From the NCBI RefSeq assembly GCF_000420745.1, contig NZ_ATVN01000004.1, forward strand, positions 1 to 64,000: a DNA stretch of 64,000 nucleotides, read 5' to 3'. Source of the stretch: Pseudorhodobacter ferrugineus DSM 5888 (GTDB taxonomy: Bacteria > Pseudomonadota > Alphaproteobacteria > Rhodobacterales > Rhodobacteraceae). The notes below the pieces were generated by a model. The model made no database searches, was not told the DNA's origin, and saw only the letters and a program-made list of their open reading frames with translations. Positions 15,275-24,749 of this stretch are shown here, in pieces; position 1 is the stretch's first letter, and each line of letters opens with the position of its first letter. Both the position numbers and the translations under genes were made by a program.

Positions 15275-18040
15275 TTACTCTGCTGCGACCGCGCTTTCGG
15301 CTTTTTCAACCTTGACCGCCGAGAATTTAAACTCGGGGATTTTACCGTAAGGGTCGACTGCGGGGTTGGTCAGGATATTCGCTGCCGCCTCGACATAGGC
15401 GAAGGGCAGGAACACCATATCCTCGGCCACGGCACGGTCTGCGCGGGCCATGATAACGATGCTGCCGCGGCGGGTGGACAGGCGCACATGGCCGCCCGGT
15501 TCCACGCCCAAGGCCCGCAGGGTTTTGGGGTGAAGAGAGCAGTTCGCCTCGGGTTCTACCGCGTCCAGAACCTTGGAACGGCGGGTCATGGAGCCGGTGT
15601 GCCAATGTTCCAACTGTCGCCCCGTTGTCAGAATCATCGGGTATTCAGCATCTGGCACCTCATCAGGGGCAATCACCGATGCAGGGGCAAACCGTGCGCG
15701 ACCGTTTGCGCGCGGGAAGCCATCGGCGAACACAATCGGCTGGCCGGGGTCGGTGGGCGACAGGCTGGGGTAGGTGACGCAGCCCTCAGATTCGAGCCGG
15801 TCCCATGTGATGTTGTTCAGCGACTTCATATTCAGCTTCATTTCGGCGAACACTTGGGACGGGTGGGTGTAGGTCCAGTTCAGACCAAGGCGTTTTGCAA
15901 GTTCAACCGTGATCGCCCAATCCTCGCGCGCCTCACCCGGTGGTTTCACCGCTGGGCGGCCCATTTGCACCTGACGGTTGGTATTCGTCACGGTGCCGGA
16001 TTTTTCATAGAACGCGGCGGCGGGCAGGATGACATCGGCGTAATTGGCGGTTTCTGTCAGGAAAATATCCTGCACAATCAGGTGTTCCAGTTTCGCCAGC
16101 GCCTCACGCGCATGGGTGACGTCGGGGTCGGACATCGCCGGATTTTCACCAAGGATATACATGCTTTTGATATGGCCTTCGTGGACCGCATCCAGAATTT
16201 CGGTGACGGTCAGGCCCTTTTCGGCGCTGAAATCGCCTGATCCCCAGACCTCGGTAAAGGCGTTGCGGATATTGTCGCTGGTGACGGTTTGGTAATCGGG
16301 CAGGAACATCGGGATCAGGCCCGCATCGGACGCGCCTTGGACGTTGTTCTGGCCGCGCAACGGGTGAAGGCCCGCGCCGGGGCGGCCAACTTGGCCCGTC
16401 ATAAGCGCCAAAGCGATCAGGCTGCGGGCATTGTCGGTGCCGTGGATGTGTTGCGACACGCCCATACCCCAGAAAATCATGCCCGCTTTGGCACCTGCAA
16501 AGGTGCGCGCCACGTCGCGGAGGGTTTCGGCGGGGATGCCGCAAACCGCCGCCATCTTTTCGGGTGGGAAGTTTGCAAGGTGAGCTTTTTCAGCCTCCCA
16601 ATTCTCGGTGTAGGCCTCGATATATTGTTGATCGTACAGCTTTTCCTCAACAATCACATGCATGATGGCGTTGAGCATCGACACATCCGAACCGGGGCGG
16701 AATTGCAGCATGTGGCTGGCAAAACGGCGCAGGCCAACGCCGCGCGGGTCCATCACGATCAGCTTGCCGCCGCGTTTGGTGAATTGCTTGAAAAAAGTCG
16801 CGGCGACGGGGTGGTTTTCAACCGGATTGGCACCGATGACGATGGCGACATCCGAGTTTTCGATTTGGTTGAAGGTGGCCGTTACGGCGGCGGAACCCAC
16901 GTTTTCCATCAGCGCCGCCACAGATGAGGCGTGGCACAGGCGCGTGCAGTGATCGACGTTGTTATGGGCAAACCCTTGGCGGATCAGCTTTTGGAAGAGA
17001 TATGCCTCCTCATTCGAGCATTTGGCCGAGCCAAAGCCCGCAATCGCGCGACCGCCATCGCTGTCGCGCAGTTTGGTCATGCCTTTGGCGGCGAAGTCCA
17101 GCGCCTCGTCCCATGTTGCCTCACGGAAATGGGTCATCAGGTTGCCGGGGTCCACGTTCAGGCCTTTGGGCATGTTCGGCTTGCGGATCAGCGGTTTGGT
17201 CAGGCGGTGCGGGTGGTGGATATAGTCATAGCCGAAGCGACCTTTGACACACAGGCGGCCTTCGTTGGCGGGGCCGTTGATGCCGTCGACGAACTTGACC
17301 TTGCCGTCTTTGACTTTCAGCGAGACCTGACAGCCGACACCGCAGAACGGGCAGATGGATTTGACTTCGGTGTCGAAATCCTTGCTGTCGCCGCGCTGTT
17401 GGTCATCCATCACCGAAGCGGGCATCAGAGCGCCCGTGGGGCAGGCCTGCACACATTCACCGCAGGCAACGCAAGTGCTGGCACCCATCGGGTCGGCCAT
17501 ATCAAAGGTGGGATAGCTGTTTTGGCCGCGACCCGACATGCCGATCACGTCATTCACCTGCACCTCGCGGCAGGCGCGCACGCAAAGGCCACAGGAAATG
17601 CAGGCATCAAGGTTGACGCGCATGGCGACGTGAGAGTCGTCCAAGAGCGGGATGCGGGTGGATTCGAGTTTCGGCAAACGGGTGCCTGTGGCGCCGGTGG
17701 CCGCGATCATATCAACCATGTGGGATGAGGCGTCATGCTTGGTTTCGGGCAGATCTGTCACCAGCATTTCCACAACCATCTTGCGGGCGGCAAGGGCACG
17801 GGCGGACCCAGTATGCACGACCATGCCCGCCACGGGTTCGCGGATACAAGACGCGGCAAGGGTGCGTTCGCCTTCCACCTCGACCACGCAGGCGCGACAG
17901 TTGCCATCGGGACGGTAACCGGGGGCAGGTTTGTGGCACAGATGCGGGATGATCAGGCCGCGACCGTTCGCGACCTCCCATATCGTTTGGCCAGCTTCGG
18001 CAGTGGTCTCAATGCCATCAAGGGTGAATGTTACGGACAT
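15275..18040 (-). CDS. fdsA: NAD-dependent formate dehydrogenase, alpha (molybdenum) subunit
   Basis: A 921-residue catalytic subunit that oxidises formate to CO2. Visible cofactor sites in order: a [2Fe-2S] domain with C35, C48, C51 and C65; two ferredoxin clusters (C147/C150/C153/C157 and C190/C193/C196/C200); a [4Fe-4S] with C230/C233/C237/C264; and the molybdenum ligand C369 followed by H370 in TRLCHASSV, so this is a cysteine rather than selenocysteine enzyme. The remainder is the bis-MGD domain. I start at 18040, overlapping the preceding fdsB stop by one base (TGATG); the longer open frame merely covers the end of fdsB. Soluble, cytoplasmic, partner of the gene upstream. Confidence 0.95.
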   Translation of the reverse strand: MSVTFTLDGIETTAEAGQTIWEVANGRGLIIPHLCHKPAPGYRPDGNCRACVVEVEGERTLAASCIREPVAGMVVHTGSARALAARKMVVEMLVTDLPETKHDASSHMVDMIAATGATGTRLPKLESTRIPLLDDSHVAMRVNLDACISCGLCVRACREVQVNDVIGMSGRGQNSYPTFDMADPMGASTCVACGECVQACPTGALMPASVMDDQQRGDSKDFDTEVKSICPFCGVGCQVSLKVKDGKVKFVDGINGPANEGRLCVKGRFGYDYIHHPHRLTKPLIRKPNMPKGLNVDPGNLMTHFREATWDEALDFAAKGMTKLRDSDGGRAIAGFGSAKCSNEEAYLFQKLIRQGFAHNNVDHCTRLCHASSVAALMENVGSAAVTATFNQIENSDVAIVIGANPVENHPVAATFFKQFTKRGGKLIVMDPRGVGLRRFASHMLQFRPGSDVSMLNAIMHVIVEEKLYDQQYIEAYTENWEAEKAHLANFPPEKMAAVCGIPAETLRDVARTFAGAKAGMIFWGMGVSQHIHGTDNARSLIALALMTGQVGRPGAGLHPLRGQNNVQGASDAGLIPMFLPDYQTVTSDNIRNAFTEVWGSGDFSAEKGLTVTEILDAVHEGHIKSMYILGENPAMSDPDVTHAREALAKLEHLIVQDIFLTETANYADVILPAAAFYEKSGTVTNTNRQVQMGRPAVKPPGEAREDWAITVELAKRLGLNWTYTHPSQVFAEMKLNMKSLNNITWDRLESEGCVTYPSLSPTDPGQPIVFADGFPRANGRARFAPASVIAPDEVPDAEYPMILTTGRQLEHWHTGSMTRRSKVLDAVEPEANCSLHPKTLRALGVEPGGHVRLSTRRGSIVIMARADRAVAEDMVFLPFAYVEAAANILTNPAVDPYGKIPEFKFSAVKVEKAESAVAAE

Positions 18041-19725
18041 CAGATTTCCTCCGCGAAGTGTTTCATCACCAGCTTGATCGGGTTGGGAGCGGCTTGGCCG
18101 AGGCCGCAGATCGAGGCGTCGACCATGACGTTTGACAGTTCCGTCAGAAGCGCTTGGTCCCATGTGTCGGCTTGCATCAGTTTCACGGCCTTTTCGCAAC
18201 CCACACGGCAGGGGGTGCATTGGCCGCAGGATTCCGCCTCAAAGAACTTGAGCATGTTGAGGGCGGCATCGCGGGCGCGGTCTTGGTGGCCCAGAACCAC
18301 AACAGCGGCGGACCCGATAAAGGTGCCATGCGGTTGCAACGTGTCAAAATCGAGCGGGATATCGTGCATCGACGCGGGCAGCAGGCCCGAGGAGGGACCA
18401 CCCGGTTGATAGGCCTTGAAGGTGTGACCTTCCGCCATGCCGCCAGCGGCATGGAGGACATCGGTGATGGTAGAGCCTGCGGGCAAAAGGTAGACACCCG
18501 GCTTTGCCACGCGGCCCGACACGGAATAGGAACGCAGGCCGGTGCGCCCGTTCAGGGTGGTGTTGTTCAAAACCTCGGGGCCTTCGCGCACGATGCGGGC
18601 GACCCATTTCAGGGTTTCGACGTTATGGACAAGGGTCGGGCGGTCAAAGATGCCGACTTGGGCCACAAAAGGCGGACGGTGGCGGGGCAGGCCGCGCTTG
18701 CCCTCGATGCTTTCGATCATCGCGGATTCTTCGCCGCAGATATAGGCACCCGCGCCGCGGCGCAGGTCGATATAGCCGGGAGCGACAATGCCGGCCTGTT
18801 CCAGCGCTGCGATTTCATGGGCGAGGATATGGAGTACGGCGGGATATTCGTCGCGCATGTAGATAAAGCATTTATCCGCCTCGACCGCCCAAGCGGCGAT
18901 CAGCATGCCTTCGAGGAAAAGATGGGGCGTGCGTTCCAGATAATGGCGGTCTTTGAACGTGCCAGGTTCGCCTTCGTCCCCGTTCACGGCCAGATAGCGG
19001 GGGCCAGCGTTGGCGCGCACAAAGCCCCATTTCTTGCCCGACGGAAAGCCCGCCCCGCCAAGGCCGCGCAGGCCAGAGGCCATGACCAAATCCTGCACCG
19101 CCGACCAATCGCCATTGGTGCGCAGTTGCGTCAGGTGTTTATAGCCGCCTGCATGGGCATAGGCGTCAAACCCTTCGTAAAGCGGGATGACGGGGTGGAA
19201 ATCGCCCTTTGTGATCGCGTCTTCGACCTTGGCGGGGGTGGCGTGGTCGATGTGGAGGTGGCCGATTTCAAGGGTCGGGGCGGTATCGCAACGGCCCATG
19301 CACGGCGCACGCAGAACGCGGACCTTTGCCGGATCGTGACCCTTGGTCAGCGCATCAAACAGCGCCTCGGAGCCAGCGAGTTCGCACGACAGGCTGTCGC
19401 AGACACGGATGGTCAGGTCGGGCGGCGGCGTGTCATTTTCGCGGATCGGGTCAAAATGGGCATAGAAGGTCGCGACCTCCCACACCTCGGCCATCGAGAC
19501 GCGCATTTCCTCGGCCAGTGCGCGCAGATGGGCGGCAGACAGATGGCCGTATTCATCTTGGATCAAATGTAGGAATTCAATCAGCAGATCGCGGTGGCGG
19601 GGGCGGTCGCCCAGCAGGGATTTGACCTGATCCCATGCGGCATCGTCCAATTGGCGGCCCTTGGTGGCGCGGCGGCCCTTGCCCTTGCCCGATTTCCAGA
19701 TGCCGTCTTGCTGATCGAGTGCCAT
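18040..19725 (-). CDS. fdsB: Formate dehydrogenase diaphorase subunit, fused gamma (NuoE-like) and beta (NuoF-like)
   Basis: A 561-residue protein joining two subunits that are often separate. Residues about 1-155 are a NuoE/FdsG-like thioredoxin-fold domain with [2Fe-2S] cysteines C109, C114, C142 and C146. The rest is NuoF/FdsB-like, with the FMN/NADH region GLRGLGGAGFPSGKKWGF and NGDEGEPGTFKDRH, and a C-terminal [4Fe-4S] motif SCGQCTPCRVGC. It passes electrons from FdsA to NAD+. Start at 19725 follows AAAGGATACGGCC; an upstream in-frame ATG at 19788 lacks such a site. First gene of the fds operon; divergent from tusA. Confidence 0.93.
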   Translation of the reverse strand: MALDQQDGIWKSGKGKGRRATKGRQLDDAAWDQVKSLLGDRPRHRDLLIEFLHLIQDEYGHLSAAHLRALAEEMRVSMAEVWEVATFYAHFDPIRENDTPPPDLTIRVCDSLSCELAGSEALFDALTKGHDPAKVRVLRAPCMGRCDTAPTLEIGHLHIDHATPAKVEDAITKGDFHPVIPLYEGFDAYAHAGGYKHLTQLRTNGDWSAVQDLVMASGLRGLGGAGFPSGKKWGFVRANAGPRYLAVNGDEGEPGTFKDRHYLERTPHLFLEGMLIAAWAVEADKCFIYMRDEYPAVLHILAHEIAALEQAGIVAPGYIDLRRGAGAYICGEESAMIESIEGKRGLPRHRPPFVAQVGIFDRPTLVHNVETLKWVARIVREGPEVLNNTTLNGRTGLRSYSVSGRVAKPGVYLLPAGSTITDVLHAAGGMAEGHTFKAYQPGGPSSGLLPASMHDIPLDFDTLQPHGTFIGSAAVVVLGHQDRARDAALNMLKFFEAESCGQCTPCRVGCEKAVKLMQADTWDQALLTELSNVMVDASICGLGQAAPNPIKLVMKHFAEEI

Positions 19726-19851
19726 TGGCCGTATCCTTTGTGCGTCTGGTGGTTTGGGCAGGTGTCGTGCGGGCAGGGTATGTGGCATGTTCTGTCACTT
19801 GGCCGCGCAAAACAATAGACGGATGGCGGCATTTTACCGAAGGAAAGCGGC

Positions 19852-20112: not shown

Positions 20113-20145
20113 GAGTATTTTTGCAAAGATGAAATGGGGGTCAGG
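20113..20145 (+). repeat. GAGTATTT...CAAAGATGAAA repeat (copy 1)
   Basis: GAGTATTTTTGCAAAGATGAAATGGGGGTCAG-type unit between the convergent tusA and moeA ends. Closely similar units occur at 30177-30199 and 30210-30235 (reverse orientation) and 60293-60322, with a more divergent one at 26389-26413. All are intergenic and near gene ends. Confidence 0.6.
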
Positions 20146-22267
20146 TTAGGCCCATGCCGGTGTAGGGCAGGAAGCTTACCGGCATGCCGGGGGTGACCTC
20201 GGTCGCGGCATCGGGCAGTTCAATCAGGCCTGTGGCCCATGCGAGGCCGGATATGCGGCCCGACCCTTCGGATTGGAACACCTCGGCATGGCCATCGGCA
20301 TTGAGGCGGGCGCGCAGGTATTCGCGGCGACCGGCCTTTTTGGATTTGGAAAAGGCGGCGGGGACGGTGAAGCGTTGGGGTTCCACCCAGCCCGCGCCAG
20401 CAAGGGTTGAGAGGGTGGGGCGGGCGAAGATGAGCGCGCAGGTGAGGGCAGCGACGGGATTGCCAGGCAGGCCGAGGACGGGGATGCCGTTCCAAATGGC
20501 CAGCGCCAGCGGGCGGCCCGGTTTCATCGCGATGCGCCAGCTGGACAAGGTGCCTTCGGTGGAAAGGAGTTTGGACACGTGATCCTCATCCCCTGCCGAG
20601 GCACCGCCGGAGGTGAGGATGACATCGGTGGTTTGAGCGCCGAGGGTGAGCTTTTCACGAATATCATTAGGGGTGTCAGGCGCATGGCCGAGGTCGATGG
20701 CGTCATAGCCCCAACCTGTGGCAAGGGCGAGGAGCATGGGGCGGTTGGCATCATAGATCTGGTGGAGTGCGGCGGCGTTGCTGGTGATTTCATCACCCGT
20801 AGACAGAACGCCCACACGCAGGCGGCGAAAGGTTTGCACCTGCCCCGTACCAGTGGCCGCAAGCAGCGCCAAGTCGGGCGCGCGGAGTTTGTGGCCTTTT
20901 TGCAGGGCGGTGGCACCTTGGGGCAGGTCTTCACCCGCGCGGCGGGTGTTGGCGCGGGGCTTGATGGGGCCATCAAAGGCGATGGCGGTGGCGCTGATCG
21001 CGCAGTCTTCCTCTAGCACCACGGTATCAACGCCGTGGGGCAGGATCGCGCCAGTCAGGATACGCACGGCTTGGCCATGTGGGACGGTGCCGGTAAAGGG
21101 TTGGCCTGCGGCGGCGCGGCCCTGTGCCAAGGGGAGCTGGCAGATGCCTGAGCCCGTGGCGGCATGGGCAAAGCCGTAACCGTCGACTGCCGAATTGGCA
21201 TGGGGCGGGTTGGCGCGTTGGGCCGTGACATCGACGGCAAGAACGTGGCCGAGGGCGCTGTGCAGAGGCACGGTTTGGATGCCCGTCACGGGGTGCAAGG
21301 CGGCACGCAGGCGGGCCAGCGCAGCATCCACTGGGGTCCACGCCACACCTTGCGGCATGGCAAAGCAATCGTTGCGCAGGCGGGGCGGGGTTAGGGTTTT
21401 ACGCTGGGCTTGCAGTGCTTTTGCCATGCCCGCGCCAAGATACCAGCCTTCAGCTTGCAGCAATTCCTGGGGTTCATTCGGGGCCATAAGGTCCCCAAGT
21501 TTGCCGGTTTGCGACAGGTCGAAGAAGGCCTTGGCATGGGTGCGGGTTTGCGCCTCATCCGCGGTCATGCCGCCTGCGACCAAGGCGGCGACATCGGTTT
21601 TGAGCAGGGATAAATACGCCTCGGCAATGACCACAGGGGCATTGGCGGTGGGTTCCAGCGGCCAGACCGCGATTTTGCCCGCATGGGCAGCGCGCAGGCG
21701 GTGCAGCACAGGGATACCGGTCAGCGATTGCGCGCCAACGGCCCCAGCGCCGGCCAGTTGCCAGATGGTTTTGGGCTGCAAGCCCTGCTCGTGCCCGACG
21801 GTTTCGGCGCGGCGGAAATGAGCCAGTTCGGGGGGGAGCGCGGGTTTCAGGCGCGGCAGATCGGGGGTGTCTGCCTTTTGCCCATTGCCCCAGAACGGGC
21901 CACCACCGGTGAAATGGCGGTTCATTTCGGCGGCAATATCGCGGTAGTTCGTGCCGTTTTTCGGTGTGTCGGTGACGCGGGCCACAAGCCAGTCCCACAG
22001 GGCGAGCGCGTGGGGCTGGCCGGTAAGCCGTTCGGCCAGACCGCGCGGCGCGCCATAGGCGAAATCGCAGGCCAGCAGCAGGCGGGTGCCTTGGGTTAAG
22101 GCGTCAGCGATAAGTTCGGACAGTCGCACCTCGGCACCGTGACGGGTGGCGATGTTTTCGGCGGTGGTGCCTTGGGGCGTGGCGATGGCGATCCAAATGG
22201 AATCGCCGCCCGTGGTCGGTTTGCCCGCCGCCGACCAATCGACTACGATCACGCTGTCAAACGTCAT
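20141..22267 (-). CDS. moeA: Molybdopterin molybdotransferase MoeA fused to an N-terminal DUF429-like domain
   Basis: A 708-residue two-part protein. Residues about 310-708 are a complete MoeA, with PPHANSAVDGYG (354-365), STGDEITS, SGGASAGDEDHV and GLPGNPVAA; this part inserts molybdate into adenylylated molybdopterin. Residues 1 to about 300 form an additional domain beginning VIVVDWSAAGKP and including LLLACDFAYGAPRGL and GPFWGN, which looks like the RNase-H-like DUF429 type seen in uncharacterised proteins. Usual MoeA is about 400 residues, so the extra domain is a true fusion: the frame is uninterrupted. It overlaps mobB by 4 bp and is the last gene of the fdhD-mobA-mobB operon. Confidence 0.85.
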   Translation of the reverse strand: MTFDSVIVVDWSAAGKPTTGGDSIWIAIATPQGTTAENIATRHGAEVRLSELIADALTQGTRLLLACDFAYGAPRGLAERLTGQPHALALWDWLVARVTDTPKNGTNYRDIAAEMNRHFTGGGPFWGNGQKADTPDLPRLKPALPPELAHFRRAETVGHEQGLQPKTIWQLAGAGAVGAQSLTGIPVLHRLRAAHAGKIAVWPLEPTANAPVVIAEAYLSLLKTDVAALVAGGMTADEAQTRTHAKAFFDLSQTGKLGDLMAPNEPQELLQAEGWYLGAGMAKALQAQRKTLTPPRLRNDCFAMPQGVAWTPVDAALARLRAALHPVTGIQTVPLHSALGHVLAVDVTAQRANPPHANSAVDGYGFAHAATGSGICQLPLAQGRAAAGQPFTGTVPHGQAVRILTGAILPHGVDTVVLEEDCAISATAIAFDGPIKPRANTRRAGEDLPQGATALQKGHKLRAPDLALLAATGTGQVQTFRRLRVGVLSTGDEITSNAAALHQIYDANRPMLLALATGWGYDAIDLGHAPDTPNDIREKLTLGAQTTDVILTSGGASAGDEDHVSKLLSTEGTLSSWRIAMKPGRPLALAIWNGIPVLGLPGNPVAALTCALIFARPTLSTLAGAGWVEPQRFTVPAAFSKSKKAGRREYLRARLNADGHAEVFQSEGSGRISGLAWATGLIELPDAATEVTPGMPVSFLPYTGMGLT

Positions 22268-22755
22268 AGCCCCACCTCTGTCGCGATGAAGTTGGCGATG
22301 GCGGTGGTGTCATCAAGGTGGAACAACGGCAGGGCGGTTGCGGGGTTGGCATTCGATGCCACAGCGCGGATCGATGGGTTATCGGGCGACAGCAAGGGGC
22401 GGCCGGTTTCTGTGCGGTGCGCCTCGATCTTTGGGTGGGGGGCTTGTTTATAGCCTTCGATCAGGATCAGGTCGACGGGGTCTAGGCGTTGGAGGAGGTC
22501 GTCCAACGCGGGTTCCGACGCACCGCGCAATTCGGTCATCAGCGCCCAGCGTACGGGGGATGATACCAGCACCTGCCCCGCGCCTGCGGTACGGTGGCGG
22601 TAACTGTCGCGGCCTTCGTGGTCGATTTCCGTGGCGTGATGGGCGTGTTTGATGGTGGAAACGGACAGCCCCCGCGCGGTGAATTCGGTGATCAGGCGTT
22701 CCATGAGGCCGGTTTTGCCTGCGTTTTTAGTGCCTGTGATGCCGTAGATCTTCAT
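22264..22755 (-). CDS. mobB: Molybdopterin-guanine dinucleotide biosynthesis adaptor MobB
   Basis: A 163-residue P-loop GTPase: Walker A GTKNAGKTG at residues 8-16, then VSTIKHAHHATEIDHEGRDS, the metal/nucleotide region of MobB, and DLILIEGYK as Walker B. MobB assists MobA in attaching GMP to molybdopterin, as needed for the bis-MGD cofactor of FdsA. Overlaps both mobA (upstream) and moeA (downstream) by 4 bp. Confidence 0.93.
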   Translation of the reverse strand: MKIYGITGTKNAGKTGLMERLITEFTARGLSVSTIKHAHHATEIDHEGRDSYRHRTAGAGQVLVSSPVRWALMTELRGASEPALDDLLQRLDPVDLILIEGYKQAPHPKIEAHRTETGRPLLSPDNPSIRAVASNANPATALPLFHLDDTTAIANFIATEVGL

Positions 22756-23360
22756 GCCTGCCCCATCAGGGTTTCTGCCTCAAGTATATCTTCGGGTGTG
22801 TTGATGTTGAAGAACGGATCAAAGGGGTGGCTGACAAATTCGGCGGTGCCTGCGTGGTGGCTGTCGGTCCACAAAACGATTTTGCGCAGGCCACCCGTGA
22901 GCGCCGCGCGCAGGTCGTGGCGCAGGGCGGTGGGCCACAGGCCAAAGGTGGGTTGGCGGTGCAGCTTGCCCATAGGGTCGCGGCTGGCGGCAAGGCACAG
23001 GCCGGAGGGGCCTGCGTTCTCTTGCAGTTTGACGGCCAGATCGGCAGGGAAAAACGGGGTGTCGGCGGCGGCGGTGATGATTGCTGTTGCCCCAAGGTTT
23101 GCGGCCCAATCTAGGCCTGCGAGGACACCCGCCAAGGGGCCGGGGTGATCGGGCAGGCTGTCGGGTAGGATGGGCAGGCCAAATTCGGCAAGGCGTGCGG
23201 GGTCACCATTGGCGTTGATAGCAAGGGGCGTGCATTGAGCGGACAGGCGGGTGATGACATGGTCGATAAGCCGCTGACCTGCGACCATGCGCAAGCCTTT
23301 GTCGCCGCCGCCCATGCGGGTTGCGCGCCCGCCTGCAAGGATGATGCCGAGCAGGGTCAT
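22752..23360 (-). CDS. mobA: Molybdenum cofactor guanylyltransferase MobA
   Basis: A 202-residue nucleotidyltransferase. The N-terminal GTP-binding motif ILAGGRATRMGGGDKG is at residues 7-22, and the later FFNINTPEDILEAE block is typical of MobA. I start at 23360, where the ATG overlaps the upstream stop as ATGA; an in-frame ATG six codons earlier is possible. It makes the MGD form of the cofactor required by the formate dehydrogenase in this block. Confidence 0.92.
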   Translation of the reverse strand: MTLLGIILAGGRATRMGGGDKGLRMVAGQRLIDHVITRLSAQCTPLAINANGDPARLAEFGLPILPDSLPDHPGPLAGVLAGLDWAANLGATAIITAAADTPFFPADLAVKLQENAGPSGLCLAASRDPMGKLHRQPTFGLWPTALRHDLRAALTGGLRKIVLWTDSHHAGTAEFVSHPFDPFFNINTPEDILEAETLMGQA

Positions 23361-23887
23361 TGTGCCGCCGTGTGCCATGATTGCATTTGGGCAAAGGCGG
23401 CTTTGGGGTCGTCAAAGGCGCGGTTTGGCAGAATAAAGGCCGCGCCGCCGATCGACATGAAAATCGCAGTTTTGCCATGGGTCAACTGGAACACAGCGGG
23501 CCAGCCCAGACGCCTGTCTTCATGTGTAGTTTGAACGTGAATGCCTGCCGCATCAACGGTGATACGGGTGCCCGTCGGGTCTTCACAGGCCAAGGCGCGG
23601 GTGGACATCCAATCCAGCTGCATCCCGTATTGAAGCAACCCAAAACCACCCACCAAAAGAAACACGATTGGCCCGATGTAAAAGGGCGGCATGCCGCCAG
23701 TTGCGGCCGTGTAGGCCCAGATGAACAGGCCCATGGCCCCCGCCCCCGCCAAAAGCGCCATAACAAGCAGGGCCACCGAAATGACGCGGCGTTGCCACGG
23801 CAACAGCAAGGCGTTGGATGCCATGGCGATGCCTTCGACCATTTCATCTTGGGCCAGGGTGAAATCAAGCGTGATCTTGTCAGTCAT
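23357..23887 (-). CDS. Small two-helix membrane protein (YcxB-like), function unknown
   Basis: A 176-residue protein with two hydrophobic segments (VISVALLVMALLAGAGAMGL and FYIGPIVFLLVGGFGLLQYG) between a short N-terminal part and a C-terminal cytoplasmic domain with RITVDAAGIHVQTTHEDRRLGW and AAFILPNRAF, resembling YcxB-like proteins. It is locked between fdhD (8-bp overlap) and mobA (4-bp overlap), so it is certainly expressed with the molybdenum cofactor genes, yet no known step needs such a protein. Could be a hitchhiker. Confidence 0.72.
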   Translation of the reverse strand: MTDKITLDFTLAQDEMVEGIAMASNALLLPWQRRVISVALLVMALLAGAGAMGLFIWAYTAATGGMPPFYIGPIVFLLVGGFGLLQYGMQLDWMSTRALACEDPTGTRITVDAAGIHVQTTHEDRRLGWPAVFQLTHGKTAIFMSIGGAAFILPNRAFDDPKAAFAQMQSWHTAAQ

Positions 23888-24749
23888 CCTGCGCTCCTTT
23901 GCGGCGGTGTTTGCGGTCTTCCTCGGCGGGGGTCACGTCTGTATCGCGTATAAGCCGATCCTCGCCCGACAGGCAGACAAAGCGTTGGCCGCGCATCCGG
24001 CCAATCAGGGTCAGGCCCACTTGTCGCGCGATTTCGACACCCCATGCGGTAAAGCCGGAGCGCGAGGCGAGGGTGGGGATGCCCATTAAAGCGGTTTTTA
24101 TGACCATTTCCGAGGTGAGGCGGCCGGTGGTGTAGAGGATTTTATCCGCCGCCGGAATGTTGTGTTGGAACATGAAGCCGCTGATTTTGTCGACTGCGTT
24201 ATGGCGGCCCACGTCTTCCATATAGACCAGCGGTTTATCCCCTTGGCAGAGCGTCGTGCCGTGGATCGCTCCCGCCTCCAAATACAAGGATGGGACCGTG
24301 TTGATCTGATGCGCCAGCGCGTAGAGCCATGAGGTGCGGACGGGGGTTGCAGGCAGGGTCAGCCCCTCTAACCCTTCCATCATATCGCCAAAAACCGTGC
24401 CCACGGCGCAACCGGACGTGCGGGTTTTCTTTTTGACCTTTTCCTCATAACTGGTTTTGCGCTGGGTGCGCACGACGACGGTTTCAACGTCTTCCTCATA
24501 GTCCACGCCTGTTACCACATCATCGGCGCGCAGCATGCCTTGGTTGCGCAAAAACCCAAGGGCGAGGTATTCGGGATAATCGCCGATGGTCATCGCCGTG
24601 ACGATTTCCTGCGCATTCAGGTAAATGGTCAGGGGCCGTTCCTCGACCACCGAAAGCGTCACGTCAGCGCCAGTGTGATCGGTGCCCGTAATCGCACGGG
24701 TCAGGCGCGGGTCGGACGGGTTGGGCAGGATTGGATAGGTCGGTGTCAT
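23880..24749 (-). CDS. fdhD: Formate dehydrogenase accessory sulfurtransferase FdhD
   Basis: A 289-residue sulfur carrier that sulfurates the molybdenum cofactor before insertion into formate dehydrogenase. The conserved cysteine loop is TSGCAVGT with Cys114; the second cysteine of the CxxC seen in E. coli FdhD is a glycine here. Other family blocks are YLALGFLRNQGM, YMEDVGRHNAVDKI and LTSEMVIKTALMGIP. First gene of a five-gene operon (fdhD, YcxB-like, mobA, mobB, moeA), divergent from the DUF2478 gene with 63 bp between starts. Confidence 0.94.
   Translation of the reverse strand: MTPTYPILPNPSDPRLTRAITGTDHTGADVTLSVVEERPLTIYLNAQEIVTAMTIGDYPEYLALGFLRNQGMLRADDVVTGVDYEEDVETVVVRTQRKTSYEEKVKKKTRTSGCAVGTVFGDMMEGLEGLTLPATPVRTSWLYALAHQINTVPSLYLEAGAIHGTTLCQGDKPLVYMEDVGRHNAVDKISGFMFQHNIPAADKILYTTGRLTSEMVIKTALMGIPTLASRSGFTAWGVEIARQVGLTLIGRMRGQRFVCLSGEDRLIRDTDVTPAEEDRKHRRKGAQDD

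Follow-up and report, generated by a model that had tools for sequence, protein, structure and literature searches.

We found that a fused gene of Pseudorhodobacter ferrugineus DSM 5888 encodes a MoeA that is probably of the tungsten type, preceded by a domain of predicted RNase-H-like fold that we call X. The gene (X::moeA) lies in a stretch of 64,000 nucleotides (contig NZ_ATVN01000004.1 of assembly GCF_000420745.1, positions 1 to 64,000), the whole of which is referred to as the window. On balance, we lean towards reading the protein as a MoeA that inserts tungstate and is linked to an accessory domain, hydrolase-like and dispensable, that is not molybdenum-specific. A first-pass annotation of the same DNA had described a DUF429-like domain fused to a complete MoeA, and had suggested that the fusion could assign a step of molybdenum cofactor handling to the extra domain. 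The 708-residue frame, its complete MoeA and the quoted motif strings were all found in the protein; the family name and the molybdenum step fared less well. The gene and its parts are as follows:

20141..22267, minus strand: X::moeA fused gene, 708 codons plus stop, ATG start, no internal stop
21392..22267, minus strand: X, the N-terminal domain (residues 1-292), predicted RNase-H-like (RuvC/YqgF-type) fold, equal to the 'unknown domain' of PRK14495
21347..21397, minus strand: linker (residues 291-307), predicted local confidence (pLDDT) mostly below 50
20165..21334, minus strand: MoeA part (residues 312-701) with MoeA_N, MoCF_biosynth and MoeA_C
20513..20515, minus strand: Arg585 of KPGR, equivalent to Arg291 of Methylorubrum extorquens MoeA1
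20450..20452, minus strand: Ala606 of GNPVA, equivalent to Ala312 of M. extorquens MoeA1

All three Pfam domains of MoeA (MoeA_N at residues 312-473, MoCF_biosynth at 486-620 and MoeA_C at 635-701) scored above their curated cut-offs (130.5, 94.3 and 44.9 bits against 30.8, 26.6 and 22.1, respectively), and thus the MoeA part is complete; it matched E. coli MoeA (1fc5) with an E value of 3e-58. For the X region (residues 1-300), Pfam gave no match even at E <=10. Residues 2-286 aligned to positions 166-448 of the NCBIfam model NF011066/PRK14495, which is the non-MobB half of that model (E 2e-54), and the fused protein missed the whole-model cut-off, which spans MobB plus X, MobB being a separate gene here. 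Of 80 named loci from other genomes, which were the best 80 of at least 539 confirmed relatives, 36 carried X and MoeA in a single stop-free frame. When 28 full-length fused proteins, including that of the window, were aligned, the mean column identity was 65%. Thus, the fusion is not a matter of chance. The closest named X among the best 80 relatives was that of Pseudorhodobacter wandonensis (66%), and two deposited X::MoeA proteins carry the annotation 'gephyrin-like molybdotransferase Glp'. In the full-length model, the predicted TM-score (pTM) fell to 0.51, which together with the low-confidence linker fits two parts that are placed independently. A separate internal MoeA start (ATG, residue 304) was considered unlikely, as no clear ribosome-binding site could be seen by eye upstream of it.

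The tungsten type of the MoeA part was suggested by two residues and by the operon in which the gene lies. According to a 2026 study of M. extorquens (PMC13197769), the tungsten enzyme MeFDH1 needs MoeA1, MobB and FdhD, the activity of the molybdenum formate dehydrogenase (FDH) relies on MoeA2 and FdhD and does not require MoeA1 and MobB, and the residues of MoeA1 reported to favor tungstate are Arg291 (in KPGR) and Ala312 (in GNPVA). The window MoeA has both residues, Arg585 and Ala606, in the same motifs and at the same spacing of 21 residues. In the scanned X loci there were 44 MoeA rows, 41 of which exceeded 300 residues (the three shorter ones were left out of the count); 39 of the 41 possessed both Arg and Ala, and the remaining two, which have KPGK or GNPVSA, are distant copies of MoeA. 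The second MoeA of the same genome, a stand-alone protein 35% identical to the fused MoeA part, reads RPGK and GNPVSS, and E. coli MoeA has Lys and Ser at the aligned positions. The minus-strand operon runs in the order fdhD, YcxB-like gene, mobA, mobB, X::moeA, FDH beta and FDH alpha, and the genes around X::moeA are as follows:

23880..24749, minus strand: fdhD, FDH sulfurtransferase (Pfam, NCBIfam)
23357..23887, minus strand: YcxB-like protein (Pfam)
22752..23378, minus strand: mobA, guanylyltransferase (Pfam, NCBIfam)
22264..22755, minus strand: mobB (Pfam), overlapping the start of X::moeA by 4 bases
18040..19788, minus strand: FDH beta, a single chain with a NuoE-like and a NuoF-like part, best solved match 7e5z_B
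15275..18043, minus strand: FDH alpha, start set at about 18043 and not 18220, best solved match 7vw6_A

FDH alpha scored 1326 bits against the tungsten FDH alpha 7vw6_A and 619 bits against 6tg9_A, and FDH beta scored 674 bits against the tungsten FDH beta 7e5z_B and 227 bits against the formate dehydrogenase beta 6tg9_B. By sequence, the window FDH is thus nearest, among solved enzymes, to the tungsten enzyme MeFDH1. Because Arg and Ala are both present and the FDH of the operon is closest to a tungsten FDH, the fused MoeA is probably of the tungsten type, that is, a putative tungstate insertase. Specificity for tungsten is most likely, judging from these residues and from homology to the studied system. 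With respect to the molybdenum handling proposed by the first-pass annotation, X is indeed usually encoded with molybdopterin genes in the family, and the metal is more likely tungsten than molybdenum (PMC13197769).

The structure of X was modeled with high confidence by AlphaFold2 from 62 aligned sequences (pLDDT 96.5, pTM 0.94). The model contains strands at residues 5-10, 24-30 and 33-39, a helix at 42-58 and a strand at 63-67, followed by a helix at 177-194, strands at 199-202 and 212-217, and a helix at 236-253, and this order of elements equals that of an RNase-H-like core (beta1-2-3-alpha-beta4-...-beta5-alpha). Comparison with solved structures by VIA-align gave the highest Z values for Cas12a (7.5), RuvC 4ktw (7.0), RuvC 4ld0 (6.9), Spt6 (6.8), a terminase nuclease (6.5) and YqgF (5.9); the upper rows were RNase-H-like folds (Z about 5.5-7.5), including MutS, and actin-like ATPase folds ranked lower. 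The first rows of a Foldseek search were RNase H, integrase cores and YeaZ, and searches of solved structures with the single X sequence or with an X profile yielded nothing useful. X is predicted to have an RNase-H-like, RuvC/YqgF-type fold, which agrees with the RNase-H-like start noted earlier.

Four acidic residues mark the proposed site in the model: Asp10 ends strand 1, Asp68 follows strand 4, Glu216 ends the strand at 212-217 and Asp237 starts the last core helix. All four were invariant in 62 of 62 rows and again in 135 of 135 rows drawn from all gene contexts; Arg152 and Glu273 were likewise invariant in the 135 rows. About 110 residues separate strand 4 from the helix at 177, and N116, G123, W126 and R152 within this segment were invariant in the 62 rows. 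A catalytically dead domain had been named beforehand as something that would speak against a function of X; with its acidic residues invariant, the site does not look dead. These residues most likely bind a divalent metal and catalyze phosphoester hydrolysis, and X is probably a hydrolase, to judge by the predicted fold and the conserved residues.

We then considered where X occurs. Genomes were counted in a set of 198 from the family, apparently Rhodobacteraceae in a wide sense. X was present in 125 of them, with a single match in each except two in which it was split into fragments, and was missing from 73, and MobA was detected in 191 of the 198. The 125 X genes were sorted by neighborhood: at least 81 lay within 3 kb of a MobA match, another 18 were placed beside MobA or MobB by hidden Markov model scans of fetched loci, and two more by an adjacent MobB (G021 and G022). 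In total, 101 were found in a mob context, nine in a cobalamin context and one in a xanthine-dehydrogenase-like context, 10 had other neighbors (one at a contig edge), and the remaining four were outside the tally. Among the 80 named loci, 36 had X::MoeA, six had MobB::X, 28 had an unfused X together with MobA, whether or not MobB was also there, and 10 had no mob gene in view, some of the contigs being short. X followed MobA in 22 of the 80, MobB not being recognized in the fetched stretch, and one locus (L121) had MobA::X in one stop-free frame. Ruegeria sp. TM1040 encodes X and MoeA in two adjacent genes. A triple fusion of MobA, MobB and X at L023 and L031 was rejected, since MobA was in another frame in both, and the 227 residues before the L031 MobB had no NCBIfam match.

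In the cobalamin context, the gene order was CbiX, X::CobH and a methyltransferase; X was fused to CobH in eight family genomes and lay unfused between CbiX and CobH in one. In all nine, this was the only X copy and MobA was located elsewhere. At locus L090, X covers residues 38-330 and CobH approximately 340-538 (Pfam, NCBIfam). X::CobH (precorrin-8X methylmutase, CobH/CbiC) behind CbiX was seen at L090 (9887-11560), L111 (2846-4507), L144 (4456-6033) and L181-L188. X was also seen near a xanthine-dehydrogenase-like large subunit at L045 (10001-10867), L051, L057 and L214; at L045, L051 and L214 it also adjoins a 227-residue protein, which had no Pfam match at L045.

Across the phylum, X was found in 55 of 398 genomes, 40 of them outside the family. 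In the 22 of these 40 that were inspected, no mob gene adjoined X, although 10 of the 22 offered a flank of only 1.5 kb. Neighbors outside the family included ADH-type oxidoreductases (seven places), MgsA/RarA, a NUDIX hydrolase and others, and one X::CobH. X was not found in the phage records searched. When 135 X domains were placed on a tree, their contexts required a minimum of 20 changes, against a mean of 46 for shuffled labels. The 20 is inflated by the label 'other' (25 rows), which is not one state, and the tree itself came from a quick search in which long rows make the deep branches unsure. By itself, the mob label required 11 changes, six of them forced by starred branches, and the cobalamin label eight, four of them forced. 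Thus, X has switched its neighborhood more than once.

To relate X to the tungsten FDH, we defined a close FDH as a match to the catalytic part of the window FDH alpha with at least 58% identity and E <=1e-100. Such an FDH was present in 121 of the 198 genomes. X occurred in 79 of the 121 FDH-containing genomes and in 46 of the 77 that have no such FDH (p 0.45), and 42 of the 121 had the FDH without X. MobB, on the other hand, was present in 117 of 121 versus 29 of 77 (Fisher p 5e-21). As the genomes are related, these p-values are guides only. X would be dispensable, judging from its absence in these genomes. The first-pass annotation had held that absence in close relatives with no effect would refute the proposed function: absence was indeed observed at the genome level (42 of 121), and all four loci fetched from such genomes keep the operon, while effect is beyond computation.

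These four belong to eight X-less mob loci that were fetched, the other four being taken from genomes that carry X in the cob operon. Each of the eight contained mobA, mobB and a moeA with KPGR, and GNPVAA was readable in seven. MobB and MoeA formed one frame in four of the eight (L217, L218, L219 and L221), so one and the same operon exists in two forms, MobB-MoeA and MobB-X-MoeA. Together with the co-occurrence of MobB and FDH, the X-less loci with KPGR indicate that it is MobB and the W-type MoeA, rather than X, that the tungsten pathway goes with. The co-occurrence is also what one would expect if MobB had a tungsten-specific role outside M. extorquens as well. In R. sphaeroides, mobB and mobC mutants were reportedly unimpaired (Buchanan's work of 2001), and mobC or the mobB product there may include X. 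Cupriavidus necator has three mobB copies, none of which had a fitness effect (PMC11540253), and thus MobB is not needed everywhere.

Based on these results, the MoeA part, together with MobB, MobA and FdhD of the same operon, most likely brings tungstate into adenylylated molybdopterin for the downstream FDH. X would be an independent RNase-H-like (RuvC/YqgF-type) domain held by a flexible linker, whose Asp10, Asp68, Glu216 and Asp237 most likely bind a divalent metal and hydrolyze a phosphoester, the substrate being one not peculiar to molybdenum or tungsten. The domain would be an accessory, as each genome has a single copy of it, set among mob, cob or other genes, and as such a MoeA is also found without it.

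A number of observations weigh against this interpretation. With regard to X as a mere accessory, 101 of the 125 family X genes adjoin mob genes, its fusions to MobB and MoeA recur and are hard to call accidental, and X was somewhat more common in genomes with MobB (101 of 146) than in those without (24 of 52; p 0.004). Moreover, long frames (at least 680 codons, a proxy for X::MoeA) were accompanied by the FDH in 53 of 57 cases and short X frames (fewer than 480 codons) in 17 of 50, frame length being only a proxy; the fused X::MoeA goes with the FDH operon and X as such does not. With regard to tungsten, the role of Arg and Ala in tungstate preference was tested in one organism only (PMC13197769), and a search of one family revealed no clear tungstate-uptake gene in the genome, apart from two PBP_like_2 matches. 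With regard to the hydrolase, all VIA-align matches of X were below Z 8 and Foldseek gave none at E <0.001 (best E 0.045), so the fold assignment rests on the order of elements, the consistent list of matches and the residue positions. In the five far rows, the position given to Asp237 hinges on an alignment that is uncertain, and we came across no reported activity of either X or DUF429.

Several other explanations were weighed. X might perform or regulate a dedicated step of molybdenum or tungsten cofactor assembly, for example the removal of adenosine or guanosine monophosphate from misloaded molybdopterin nucleotides, or help MobA and MobB make the bis-molybdopterin guanine dinucleotide. 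The predominance of mob neighborhoods, the MobB::X and X::MoeA frames, the single MobA::X frame at L121 and the 22 named loci where X follows MobA without a recognized MobB would all fit. However, nine genomes keep their sole X in a cobalamin operon (as a CobH fusion in eight) with MobA elsewhere, MobA is present in 191 of the 198 family genomes while 73 have no X, 42 of the 121 close-FDH genomes lack it, and the 22 places outside the family (10 with a 1.5-kb flank) have no mob gene beside it; we regard such a step as unlikely. For the same reasons, the earlier argument from fusion to a molybdenum function is weak: X is found in cobalamin operons in nine of 125 genomes, is missing from relatives that share the FDH, and the mobA-mobB-moeA operon was seen in its X-less form both in the four such relatives fetched and in four genomes with X in the cob operon, so the fusion alone gives X no molybdenum job. 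Alternatively, X could be a general nucleic-acid nuclease or nucleotide hydrolase present in cofactor operons by chance, where overlapping starts and stops would lead to fusions through stop loss with little functional meaning. An active site conserved independently of context, the variety of contexts (mob, cob, xanthine dehydrogenase, ADH, MgsA/RarA, MutY-like and NUDIX), the 4-base overlap with mobB in the window and the repeated context changes on the tree are what such a protein would show. Yet the mob and cob contexts together account for 110 of the 121 family places examined, which is above the expectation for random placement, and cobalamin neighborhoods turn up on different parts of the tree, which makes chance placement rather doubtful. 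This preponderance and the recurrent fusions are the strongest case against X as a pure passenger, and they leave room for a shared cofactor role. X might thus be an accessory of metal-cofactor assembly in general, an RNase-H-fold hydrolase serving two unrelated pathways. In that of tungsten- or molybdenum-pterin its neighbor is the metal insertase MoeA; in that of corrin it is fused to CobH and adjoins CbiX, presumably the cobalt chelatase. It could, for example, clear an intermediate that both pathways share and that contains a phosphoester or the wrong metal, or supply a divalent metal at insertion; we find this improbable, and continue to prefer the tungstate-inserting MoeA with a dispensable accessory domain.

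A further question was whether X is a true DUF429 protein missed by the Pfam model, as the label 'DUF429-like' had implied. By eye, short motifs follow a like order in X and DUF429 (a D near the start, DFxFGxP/DxPIGxP, E-x-Y-P-S/E-x-H-P-E and D-x-x-Q/D-D-x-x-D-A), and DUF429 has been assigned, like RuvC/YqgF, to clade D of the RNase-H-like superfamily (PMC3985635), which is the neighborhood of the best structural matches of X. In contrast, PF04250 was matched by none of 30 X proteins at E <=10 (cut-off 23 bits). A widened X profile compared with 17 DUF429 proteins by hhalign gave probabilities of 7.2 and 6.3% (E 0.005 and 0.006), with a local alignment of about 30 columns around a single motif, and the other motifs were unconvincing when the alignment was forced to full length. 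In addition, X has approximately 110 residues between its fourth strand and the helix at 177. A solved-structure search with one DUF429 protein produced only chance-level matches. Membership in DUF429 is therefore a tentative possibility that we would not favor, and the label was not borne out by these searches; that X and DUF429 descend from one distant common branch is plausible. Distant relatives of X outside the family (L148-L153) include three (L148, L149 and L152) with DDHxTDA, a DUF429-like motif, and L149 and L150 adjoin MgsA/RarA. Although this group could be a bridge between X and DUF429, its comparison with the DUF429 profile was not significant (probability 0.4%).

Other features of the region were as follows. 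The YcxB-like gene lies between fdhD and mobA, and both of its ends overlap the neighboring genes. An Rfam scan of the window gave no match at the gathering score, so no known riboswitch in the window points to regulation at the RNA level. At loci L156 and L157 (Salipiger and Alloyangia), the entire fdhD-mobA-mobB-X::moeA-FDH cluster is on plasmids of 274 and 497 kb, and a DUF2478 gene adjoins fdhD.

NCBIfam already contains the X domain, under the label of an unknown domain fused to MobB (PRK14495). In the open-licence literature, we found no paper on X, and a single search gave none on its link with CobH. Our results provide an example of how the assignment of function by fusion can mislead, as one single-copy domain is joined either to molybdopterin genes or to a B12 gene and the molybdopterin-tungsten operon also exists without it. 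That a single domain links the molybdenum/tungsten and B12 operons is itself of interest, and raises the question of what the conserved RNase-H-fold site hydrolyzes or binds, and why it does so beside cofactor genes. Furthermore, the tungsten-specific MoeA1-MobB-FDH pathway, demonstrated in one methylotroph (PMC13197769), is suggested for many genomes of the family, where the co-occurrence of MobB and FDH is strong.

Finally, we compared the fused protein with known systems. It has KPGR/GNPVA, MobB as a genetic partner and an MeFDH1-type FDH in common with M. extorquens MoeA1, whereas the N-terminal X is an addition, none being mentioned for MoeA1 in the accessible part of the study (PMC13197769). 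The model of the MobB::MoeA fusion (NF011060/PRK14491) is matched by the window's MobB as well as by its MoeA part, but in the window X is located between them and is joined to MoeA, MobB being separate. The second half of NF011066/PRK14495, the 'putative MobB/unknown domain fusion protein', is X; there it follows MobB, as in the Cereibacter johrii MobB::X locus (L099), which fits the whole model with 1036 bits, whereas in the window it stands ahead of MoeA, and mobB, a gene of its own, overlaps the fused gene by 4 bases. CobH/CbiC proteins with an N-terminal X share the same domain in a CbiX - X::CobH - methyltransferase operon; the pathway there is that of cobalamin, and no molybdopterin gene was seen beside it. 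DUF429 (PF04250) possibly belongs to the same RNase-H-like branch, with a motif order that looks alike by eye, but does not detect X by sequence and differs from it in length and insert. RuvC, YqgF (RuvX), the YqgF-like domain of Spt6 and terminase nuclease have like acidic residues at beta1, beta4 and the C-terminal helix (Z 5.9-7.5), and X differs from them by its Z values below 8, about 10% identity, the insert of about 110 residues and having no known role with nucleic acids.

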